A stretch of 64,000 bases of DNA from Thiothrix litoralis. GTDB lineage: Bacteria > Pseudomonadota > Gammaproteobacteria > Thiotrichales > Thiotrichaceae. Shown here in pieces: positions 15,163 to 18,077 of the stretch (position 1 is its first letter; each line of letters starts with the position of its first letter). Position numbers and translations under genes: made by a program. Where the stretch lies: assembly GCF_017901135.1 (NCBI RefSeq), contig NZ_CP072801.1, positions 248,001 through 312,000 of the forward strand, written 5' to 3'. The notes beneath the pieces are model-generated. The model worked only from the letters and a program-made list of their open reading frames with translations, ran no database searches and was not told the origin of the DNA.

Positions 15163-15417
15163 GTGACATCCGTGGCAGCAAATGTCTCTCAAGGCGGCAG
15201 AATTGTCATCCCAGCCGACATCCGTCAGAAAATGGGTATAGCGATTGGTGATCAGGTCTTGCTCGACTGGTCGGAGGCAACGCAAGAACTACGGGTTTTC
15301 ACCCGCAAGCAACGCCTGCAACATGCCCGCGATCTCGTGCGGCAATATGCCCGTCCGGGCGTTTCAGTCGTCGACGAATTGATTCAGGAGCGACGCAAGG
15401 CAGCAGCCGATGAGTAA
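15163..15417 (+). CDS. AbrB/SpoVT-type antitoxin (VapB-like)
   Basis: The GTG start at 15163 follows TTGAGGTGAG. The 84-residue product has an N-terminal swapped-hairpin DNA-binding domain: GGRIVIPADIRQKMGIAIGDQVLLDW, then a basic/charged C-terminal tail that would wrap around the toxin. In this family the antitoxin binds its own promoter and neutralises a PIN-domain ribonuclease. The toxin gene starts 8 bp before the stop of this one, so the pair is translationally coupled. Confidence 0.88.
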   Translation: MTSVAANVSQGGRIVIPADIRQKMGIAIGDQVLLDWSEATQELRVFTRKQRLQHARDLVRQYARPGVSVVDELIQERRKAAADE

Positions 15418-15829
15418 GGTTATTCTGGATACTTCGGCTCTGCTTGCTTACCTGTTTGAAGAGACAGGAGCCGATAAGGTATCGCCAATTCTTGAAGCAG
15501 GCAGCGGGGTGATTGGTAGTGCCAACTATGCCGAGCTAGTCACCAAACTGGTCGACAAAAACATGCCGATGCCGGAAATCCTGGCCGTGATCAGCAGTCT
15601 CGAACTTGAGTTTATTCCGCAGGACGAACAGCAAGCACGTCTGACCGGGGAATTACGTGCTATTAGCAAGCCGTTTGGTTTGTCGTTGGGCGACCGAGCC
15701 TGTTTGGCGCTGGGGCTGGCGACTGGTCTACCCGTCATGACGGCGGATCAACTCTGGAAAGATGTTGCTACAGGTCAGGATATAAAGCTAATGGTCATTC
15801 GTGACAAACCATTATCTAAAGAAGTATAA
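15410..15829 (+). CDS. PIN-domain toxin (VapC-like ribonuclease)
   Basis: PIN toxins cut RNA with Mg2+ held by acidic residues. The 139 residues show the first Asp in VILDTSALLAYLFEE, Glu in NYAELVTKL, Asp in LSLGDRACLALGLA and Asp in VMTADQLW. All four catalytic positions are present, so the toxin should be active. It overlaps the antitoxin gene by 8 bp. A thioredoxin gene follows 14 bp later on the same strand and may be read through. Confidence 0.88.
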   Translation: MSKVILDTSALLAYLFEETGADKVSPILEAGSGVIGSANYAELVTKLVDKNMPMPEILAVISSLELEFIPQDEQQARLTGELRAISKPFGLSLGDRACLALGLATGLPVMTADQLWKDVATGQDIKLMVIRDKPLSKEV

Positions 15830-16367: not shown

Positions 16368-17416
16368 TTATGCCAAAGGCACAAGCAACAAACTGATGGG
16401 CACAGCAAAAAACTGTCGTCCAGTCACCCGAAACGGCAACACCCGCTCCCCACTGTAAAACACCAACCCCGCCTCCAACCTATCCCCCACAAACGCCGCC
16501 AACTGCGCCAACCCCTTGAAATCCGCCTCGCCCACCGAAGCCGACGCTTTGATTTCAATCCCGATCAGCTTGCCGCCGCTGCGTTCCAGCACAATATCCA
16601 CCTCGTTTTTGCTGGTATCACGGAAGTGGTAAACACCAACTTCCTCCTCCGCCCAGCCCATGTGCTTGAAGCATTCCATCACGATAAGGCTTTCCAGCAG
16701 GTTGCCAAAAATGGCGGAAGTCGCCAGTTGCCGCGCTGTCTTAAGACCGAGCAAATGGCAAGCCAGCCCGGTATCCACCATGTGCAGCTTCGGCATTCCC
16801 ACGGTTTCGCGTTTTGCGCTGTTTTTCACAAACGGGGAAATACGCTTGATGATAAACATCCATTCCAACGCCTCGATATAAGAGCGGATGACTTGATCGT
16901 TTTGCGCCAAAGCGTTGGCAACACTGGCATATTTCAGCAAATTGCCACTCAAGCCCGCGAGGTAGGGAATCAAGGCTTGCAGCTTGGCATGATATTCCCC
17001 TCGCGCCGCGTACAGCGTTTCAAAGTCCTTGAACAAACGCCCCTGAATGTAGGATTTGAACCAGATGGATTTGCCGCGCGTGCTTTTGCTTTGCACTTCC
17101 GGGTAGCCGCCATCCAGCAGGATTTGCGCCAGTTGTTCGCGCATGCCCGCTTGATGGCTGGGGTGAGTTCTGGCGCATACTGGAATTCATCCAGCACCAA
17201 ATTCTGCCCGGCAAAGGACTGGATAAAACCGTGGGGGTCATTGTGTGCCGCTGCCGCTACGGCTTCCTCATCCAGCGACAGGTATTGCATTCCACGCTCG
17301 GCGGCAATCATTTTGGCAAGCGTAGTCTTGCCTGCCTGCCGTGGCCCGGTTAGGTAAAGAATCCTGAATTCTGCCAGCAATTCCAGCAGAAAGGGTGTGC
17401 TGTTACGTTGATACAT
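16368..17416 (-). pseudogene. AAA (AAA_14)-DUF4143 ATPase, internally deleted and frameshifted
   Basis: Intact members are about 400-residue P-loop proteins with a C-terminal DUF4143/nuclease-like domain. Here the N-terminal part (17416 to about 17150) has Walker A GPRQAGKTTLA, Walker B NLVLDEFQYAPE and LTPAIKRA. It then jumps in another frame to REQLAQILLDGGYPEVQ (17144 on), continuing to 16368 with FKSYIQGRLFKDFE and KNEVDIVLERSGGKLIGIEIKAS. The central 80-100 residues that usually follow IKRA (sensor region, LTGS-type motif) are missing at about 17145-17160. The combined deletion and frameshift make an active protein unlikely. Confidence 0.85.
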
Positions 17417-17432
17417 GCGGATTCCTCGTCAC

Positions 17433-17512
17433 CTTAATACGAGAAATACTAGACCTTAATACGATTTTCGGGAACCCTTATCACGAGAAATCGGCGTGCT
17501 TAATACGAGTTT
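17433..17512. promoter_or_regulatory. Four CTTAATACGA repeats with exact 22-bp spacing
   Basis: CTTAATACGAG starts at 17433, CTTAATACGAT at 17455, CTTATCACGAG at 17477 and CTTAATACGAG at 17499. The interval is 22 bp each time, two turns of DNA, while the bases between vary. The array begins 17 bp upstream of the deleted ATPase gene and occupies its promoter region. It looks like a multi-site operator for a protein binding one face of the helix. No binding protein is known from the sequence. Confidence 0.6.
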
Positions 17513-17567
17513 TTGATAAATAATCTCATAAAAATCAGTTTTCTAGAAAATTTCTTTGCAAAAAGAG

Positions 17568-18077
17568 CTACTGTAACAACCACTGATTCGGATCAACATA
17601 AAACAGCTTGTTCCAAGCCTGCGGCACACTCGCGTTATACAGCCACGGCTGCGGGTAAGGCGTGCGGATGGCGTAATGCAAGTGCGGTGGCTTGCCCTTG
17701 GCATTGCCCGACGTGCCGACTGTACCCAGTGGTTCACCCGCTTTTACCCAGCGTAACGCTTGCGTATCAATGCGTTGCAGGTGCGCGTAATAATGCAAGC
17801 GCCACTTGCCACCCAGCACCAGCACGCTATTGCCACCCATGCTATCCACCCCGGTATGCACCACCAAGCCTTGGGTAGCCGCCAGCACGGGCGTGCCTTC
17901 CTTGGCGAAAATGTCGATGCCTTTGTGTGTGCCGGAACGTCCCCACGGGTAATACCAGAACGATTGCGGGTTCCAGTCTGCCGCCGTCGCGCCGCTGACC
18001 GGGATGCGCGGTGTTTCGGGCAGTAATGCAACCGCCGCCACGAATGCTAGTAATAATGCCAGCAAGGTCTTTTTCAT
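17568..18077 (-). CDS. M23-family (LytM-type) peptidase, exported
   Basis: The 169-residue protein has an N-terminal signal peptide or anchor (KKTLLALLLAFVAAVALL) and a single M23 endopeptidase domain. Zinc ligands are visible as His and Asp in GTHKGIDIFA, and as the HxH motif in PPHLHYAI. The central GNSVLVLGGKWRLHYYAHLQ segment matches the family. Such proteins cut peptidoglycan cross-links or, if inactive, regulate amidases; here the active-site residues are kept. The gene is short but complete and ends close to the phased repeat region. Confidence 0.9.
   Translation of the reverse strand: MKKTLLALLLAFVAAVALLPETPRIPVSGATAADWNPQSFWYYPWGRSGTHKGIDIFAKEGTPVLAATQGLVVHTGVDSMGGNSVLVLGGKWRLHYYAHLQRIDTQALRWVKAGEPLGTVGTSGNAKGKPPHLHYAIRTPYPQPWLYNASVPQAWNKLFYVDPNQWLLQ

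Follow-up and report, generated by a model that had tools for sequence, protein, structure and literature searches.

The window (the whole stretch of 64,000 nucleotides of the Thiothrix litoralis genome that was analysed) contains an array of four short direct repeats immediately before the ATG (17416, minus strand) of a broken gene for an AAA_14/DUF4143 ATPase. The features of the locus, in window coordinates, are as follows.

16368 to 17144, minus strand: 3' part of the broken ATPase gene, an ORF of 258 amino acids encoding DUF4143 with a PD-(D/E)XK-like motif.
16970 to 17416, minus strand: 5' part of the broken ATPase gene, an ORF of 148 amino acids encoding the Walker-type AAA_14 part and then out of frame.
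17433 to 17442, minus strand: repeat copy nearest the ATPase gene, TCGTATTAAG, ending 16 bp before the ATG; orthologues keep the register.
17455 to 17464, minus strand: repeat copy TCGTATTAAG, an exact match; orthologues keep the register.
17477 to 17486, minus strand: variant repeat copy TCGTGATAAG; orthologues keep the register.
17499 to 17508, minus strand: repeat copy farthest from the ATPase gene, TCGTATTAAG, an exact match; orthologues keep the register.

Directly upstream of the array lies a gene for an M23-family peptidase (17568 to 18077, minus strand). A VapBC-like pair (15163 to 15829, plus strand), consisting of a gene for a MazE-type antitoxin and, after it, one for a PIN-domain protein, is situated two genes from the broken ATPase.

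Read on the minus strand towards the gene, the four 22-bp units begin with TCGTATTAAG, TCGTGATAAG, TCGTATTAAG and TCGTATTAAG; the plus strand reads CTTAATACGA exactly at 17433, 17455 and 17499, and CTTATCACGA at 17477. The pitch of the four 10-bp units is exactly 22 bp throughout, and the spacers differ while the units agree. Over the 144-bp region the four-copy periodicity score is 54 out of 60, a value reached by none of 3000 dinucleotide shuffles (mean 29.2, standard deviation 2.1, maximum 39). The four evenly spaced motifs of the preliminary description are thus real and lie exactly where it had placed them. Between 17300 and 17700 no sigma-70-type consensus promoter is found on either strand (0 sites); possible -10 boxes can be read by eye in the spacers, none of which is claimed. 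An RNA hairpin in the leader was considered and rejected, its folding being no better than that of shuffled sequences (z -0.63).

The window copy of the ATPase has no single intact reading frame, its two halves residing in separate ORFs. The 148-residue ORF matches positions 2-88 of the 129-position AAA_14 profile (E 2.9e-14) and the 258-residue ORF matches DUF4143 (E 1.1e-38). From the ATG to a common downstream word there are 278 bp in the window and 495 bp in all four of the intact orthologues measured; therefore 217 bp, which is not a multiple of three, are missing from the window gene. Relative to the orthologues this deletion lies near 17138-17150 and causes a frameshift. The claim that the array occupies the promoter region of an internally deleted ATPase gene is accordingly borne out. 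The same junction is found in a sister species (G005), whose equally broken copy is 97% identical over the 258-residue ORF and has lost its start codon in addition. Because the junction is common to both genomes, the break is older than their split. The four 10-bp cores are also unchanged between the two, which shows no selection, since the body of the pseudogene is itself nearly identical.

Among 16 genomes of the genus, six hold an orthologue that is complete or almost so (G006, G007, G009, G012, G013 and G015, the copy in G009 containing undetermined letters), three hold a broken or remnant gene together with the array (the window genome G000, G001 and G005), one holds the array alone (G004), and six have neither. 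The array of G001 is accompanied by a C-terminal remnant, and that of G004 has no ATPase coding sequence beside it. Loss of the ATPase gene is frequent, and the array persists for some time afterwards; the lingering arrays of G004 and G001 fit slow decay of a cis-element after gene loss. The window copy is itself a relic, because its ATPase gene is already broken. An independent function for the array beside the broken gene, as had been suggested from its survival, finds no support here and was rejected as unneeded.

The array is located in the promoter region of the gene that encodes its putative binder, and the two are conserved together. A protein search of named genomes identified 24 relatives in Thiotrichales-type Gammaproteobacteria and Desulfobacterota, the record of one being titled Anaerolineaceae, possibly through a binning error. 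Twenty-eight orthologue upstream regions were compared, made up of those of the 21 loci among these 24 that had a usable upstream sequence, the genus loci L012, L014, L015, L016 and L019, a locus from another genus of the family (L094) and the broken G005 copy (L082). The array is held in 22-bp register in 26 of the 28, spanning Thiotrichales and Desulfobacterota, with at least two to three copies in register and the last copy 20-50 bp before the start. A region counted as in register when three copies together matched 19 or more of the 27 core letters in the best register; the misses score 13 and 12. The motif is therefore found upstream of intact relatives, where the preliminary description had proposed to look for it. 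In the consensus 22-bp unit 14 bp are conserved (core WWWWCTCGTATTAW) and the remaining 8 bp or so vary. At L069 and L072, the two orthologues without the array, its place is taken by insertions with inverted repeats or by other sequence. By eye these insertions are MITE-like, and the ATPase frames at both loci are open.

Within the genus, the C-terminal piece of the protein detects close orthologues or remnants (82-100% identity) in nine of the 16 genomes; the array is present in all nine, and the tenth genome to carry it, G004, has no gene match beside it. A two-copy pattern allowing at most three mismatches occurs at 23 places in 11 of the 16 genomes, of which 21 are the ATPase locus and the remaining two, in G014, look like chance; a reversed control pattern gave 10 matches. 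Two Thiothrix loci, L018 and L019, have kept the array though their upstream sequence differs from that of other loci. A DNA-only pattern search of 63 genomes of the order returned 11 places in seven genomes, and in six of the seven the array lies directly before the orthologous ATPase gene (G015, G424, G434, G441), its broken copy (G005) or its remnant (G001). An orphan array of three perfect 22-bp copies was observed in G416 (L091, G416:C59), with no ATPase in the fetched 3 kb. The TATTAT form of the array was found in none of 398 genomes of the phylum. No flanking gene family is common to more than four of 20 loci, those present at three or four belonging to near relatives of each other, and the array therefore travels with the ATPase and not with a neighbour. 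Among viral contigs a search with protein A1 found no relative. The array pattern matched three of these contigs (L088, L089, L090), which carry the same local phage-like sequence with two TCGTATTAT units 22 bp apart, the spacer also being repeated, and no ATPase in the fetched stretch; these matches are probably due to chance.

The protein encoded by an intact orthologue (L014) matches DUF4143 (E 2.9e-39) and AAA_14 (E 8.7e-24), both over the Pfam cut-off. It also matches the PADLOC profile PDLC04790 of PDC-S01 end to end (E 1.1e-132, residues 1-417). PDC-S01 combines AAA_14 with DUF4143 and carries the COG1373 label; the protein is a candidate for phage defence by the PADLOC label alone. An AlphaFold model based on 39 aligned relatives (pLDDT 91.3, pTM 0.92), which replaced an earlier model from a shallow alignment (pLDDT 48.6), is made up of an AAA part, a winged-helix-like part and a PD-(D/E)XK-like part. 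Residues 214-285 follow the order helix-helix-helix-strand-wing-strand typical of a winged helix. The C-terminal domain has the order strand-strand-strand-helix-strand, and residues E344, D346, E360 and K362, which correspond to the PD-(D/E)XK active site, are invariant in the 39 aligned rows. The best structural matches, over residues 1-296, are the archaeal ATPases 2QEN (PABY2304; Z 15.7, 252 residues aligned, rmsd 4.8) and 2FNA (SSO1545; Z 14.3, 249 aligned, rmsd 4.7), followed by STAND proteins. Identity to the two archaeal proteins is, however, only about 20%, and the nuclease-like part lies outside the match. Fold matches cover residues 1-311 only, so that absence of a match for the C-terminal domain is not evidence; a Foldseek search placed Card1 at rank 23, its TM scores being low. 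Sequence searches of the PDB gave no match with one protein, and P-loop-type or weak matches only with a profile.

The conservation of these parts varies with the motif. Within the group sharing motif A, identity is 84% for the winged helix, 76% for the AAA part, 67% for the nuclease and 73% for the whole protein. Between groups A and B, whose motifs differ, the corresponding values are 26% (18% for helices 2-3), 41%, 39% and 35%. With a shared motif the winged helix is better conserved than any other part, and with differing motifs it ranks with the least conserved. Such a pattern, short of proof, would be expected of a domain that reads DNA and changes along with its site, and the linker (residues 139-209), at 26% between the groups, is conserved as poorly as the winged helix.

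Repeats with the same pitch of 22-23 bp recur in the ATPase family. In a three-copy test, 36 of 142 family upstream regions reach z of at least 3, with 29 of them at 22 bp (24) or 23 bp (5); L227 and L235 are one gene fetched twice, and the corrected count is 28 of 141. Control promoters subjected to the same test reach this threshold in 6 of 165 cases, none of the 165 at 22-23 bp. The repeat sequences differ among family members, including CTCGTATTAW, ATTCCTGATTT, TTTCAATTGGT, AGCAATTAGAC, AAAATCGCGG and ACTTTGGATTA. A fresh set was assembled by searching 274 genomes of the class with a group-B protein, yielding 30 loci, three of them without a start found. Among the 27 testable loci, 15 reach z of at least 3 and 14 of these have a pitch of 22 or 23 bp, with further unrelated motifs; the other 13 are without the 22-23-bp pitch at this threshold. 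One further upstream region, that of L257, holds a perfect 21-bp tandem repeat (CGGCAATCGGCAA per unit), with the last listed copy 87 bp from the start.

A further test in the genus started from 120 loci, 12 of which lacked a usable ORF and three of which were duplicates. Of the 27 protein clusters, 18 have a direct or inverted repeat (z of at least 3) within 130 bp upstream of the gene, and no such repeat is detected in the other nine; three clusters (L008, L009 and L011) match the family weakly, scoring below the Pfam cut-off. Such repeats occur in 17 of 160 control regions (tested of 165; Mann-Whitney p 7.6e-9). Many of the genus clusters have, instead of direct repeats, a palindrome that overlaps the start codon or lies near it. 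Palindromes in this position were seen at L002, L003, L026, L038, L155, L163, L178 and others, as well as in the viral contigs L202, L204, L205 and L209; that upstream of L178 reads CCTAGCAAATTATC..GATAATTTGCTAGG. A quick tree with 67 rows, built without L008, L009 and L011, has long branches that call for caution. On it the direct-repeat rows require three changes; there are 20 such rows, and a single branch of 24 rows takes in 18 of them. The direct-repeat rows include L066, L081 and L210, which were labelled from register or by eye though z is below 3 in the three-copy test.

These observations make it likely that the array is the ATPase's own operator. The computed elements of this reading are the array and its conservation, its travel with the ATPase gene alone, the recurring pitch, and a domain resembling a winged helix-turn-helix with its pattern of conservation. 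From these we infer that the protein binds the array, oligomerises there and exerts a repressive effect. Each 22-bp unit, about two helical turns, would be read by the winged-helix domain of the ATPase itself, with one protomer or dimer per unit. Contacts between AAA parts would link adjacent protomers along one face of the DNA, spanning the promoter, and the ATPase would most likely repress its own gene until a signal releases the repression. The presence of the same repeats, or of different ones equally spaced, before intact relatives in many bacteria suggests that the family binds its own promoter. The operator-like arrangement put forward earlier is in this respect supported, as an array in the promoter region of the ATPase gene. 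Counting against the operator are the equally divergent linker, the lack of a sigma-70 consensus, the two orthologues L069 and L072 without an array and the 13 of 27 fresh loci without the pitch. Furthermore, in STAND ATPases the winged helix after the AAA part can be regulatory and not DNA-binding. As STAND proteins are the nearest solved folds besides the two archaeal ATPases, such a role can, by analogy, be held against the winged helix as reader.

A conserved host transcription factor, encoded elsewhere, might bind the array and control the ATPase gene, direct-repeat operators of host regulators being common. Control by such a factor appears unlikely, however, as the motif is kept from Gammaproteobacteria to Desulfobacterota next to the ATPase gene only, and the T. 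litoralis genome contains no second array at up to three mismatches in the 20 specified bases. In addition, related ATPases change the motif yet keep the pitch, which a host factor does not predict. The array could also be a DNA target of the nuclease or motor part of the enzyme, a place where that part loads or cuts, or it could belong to a small mobile unit. The invariant PD-(D/E)XK-like residues agree with a nuclease target, and the surroundings of the unit vary from genome to genome. We regard both versions as quite improbable, since the array is found upstream only, close to the start codon and in a single orientation, and an unsystematic look at the far end revealed no terminal repeats or sign of mobility in the stretch read.

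Plasmid iterons are direct repeats spaced about two helical turns apart, some of them autoregulatory, and the 22-bp repeats resemble them. An origin as iterons of an integrated plasmid, which had been raised at the outset, or as another replication-control site is nevertheless very improbable: no replication initiator or origin accompanies the window array, and among the flanking ORFs compared only the ATPase accompanies the array in more than four of 20 loci. In 72,556 plasmid records no match covers the array, the two short matches found (query 111-147, E 0.4) being chance ones outside the repeats. A chance tandem duplication, in whose favour stands the low copy number and nothing more, can safely be dismissed on the strength of the shuffles, the differing spacers and the conservation in orthologues, which refutes it.

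Returning to the self-encoded operator, a more speculative extension is possible though doubtful. The 22-23-bp pitch may be the fixed footprint of an AAA+ oligomer, with PDC-S01 parked on its own promoter, such that one assembly would repress the gene and hold the enzyme inactive until an infection signal released both. Were this true, a signal breaking the assembly would turn on expression and free the nuclease at once, and a very common and unexplained defence candidate would be defined in part by its upstream array or palindrome.

Several known systems offer points of comparison. PDC-S01 is described, in the portion of the source available, as the fourth most common defence across prokaryotes and as an ATPase fused to a PD-(D/E)XK member, validation being pending for most such candidates; that portion contains nothing on promoter arrays or self-regulation (PMC12988326). 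The intact orthologue matches its profile from end to end, but the window copy is broken. The nearest functional parallel is, by analogy, RptR, a proven autorepressor of a defence locus acting on three direct repeats. These overlap the promoter of an E. coli defence island and two copies suffice in vivo, according to the part of the report at hand (PMC12255303). RptR is, however, described there as a separate 9-kDa helical protein recognizing a 6-bp palindrome in 9-bp repeats, whereas the arrays described here have a pitch of 22-23 bp and would be read by the AAA-nuclease itself.

MalT boxes are the promoter sites of the STAND regulator MalT. Regulators of the MalT/IniR type likewise combine a STAND-like ATPase with binding to promoter sites and oligomerisation, and the available text on IniR likens its AAA part to SSO1545 (PMC5760070), which together with PABY2304 gave the best fold matches here. 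The DNA-binding domain of these regulators is a C-terminal one of LuxR type; in the present family, by contrast, the winged helix follows the AAA part and the PD-(D/E)XK-like domain ends the protein. No LuxR-type domain is present among the Pfam matches of the intact orthologue up to E 1, its C-terminal part being DUF4143. The haloarchaeal Orc1-2 also uses AAA+ plus winged helix as a transcription regulator; it is, however, an Orc1 relative controlling a global DNA-damage regulon, and the accessible part of the report mentions no direct-repeat array (PMC9738581). The TAACTGA repeats of Beggiatoaceae, on the portion of the source seen, are a different thing and were set aside, consisting of 7-bp head-to-tail units near many genes (PMC4679880).

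The AAA_14/DUF4143 ATPases are a widespread and poorly understood family. The literature searched on DUF4143, AAA_14/PF13173, COG1373, PDC-S01 and SSO1545, as far as its text was available, holds no description of promoter repeats for the family and none of the working mechanism or control of PDC-S01. If each enzyme does read its own array, the DNA-binding domain of the family, its target and its regulation become directly testable. The arrays would then also provide a sequence handle for sorting subfamilies and for finding degraded loci, and the fixed pitch would constrain how AAA protomers assemble on DNA. The family has expanded strongly: the window genome has 10 DUF4143 matches (7 of them over the cut-off), and one relative has as many as 20 protein matches.
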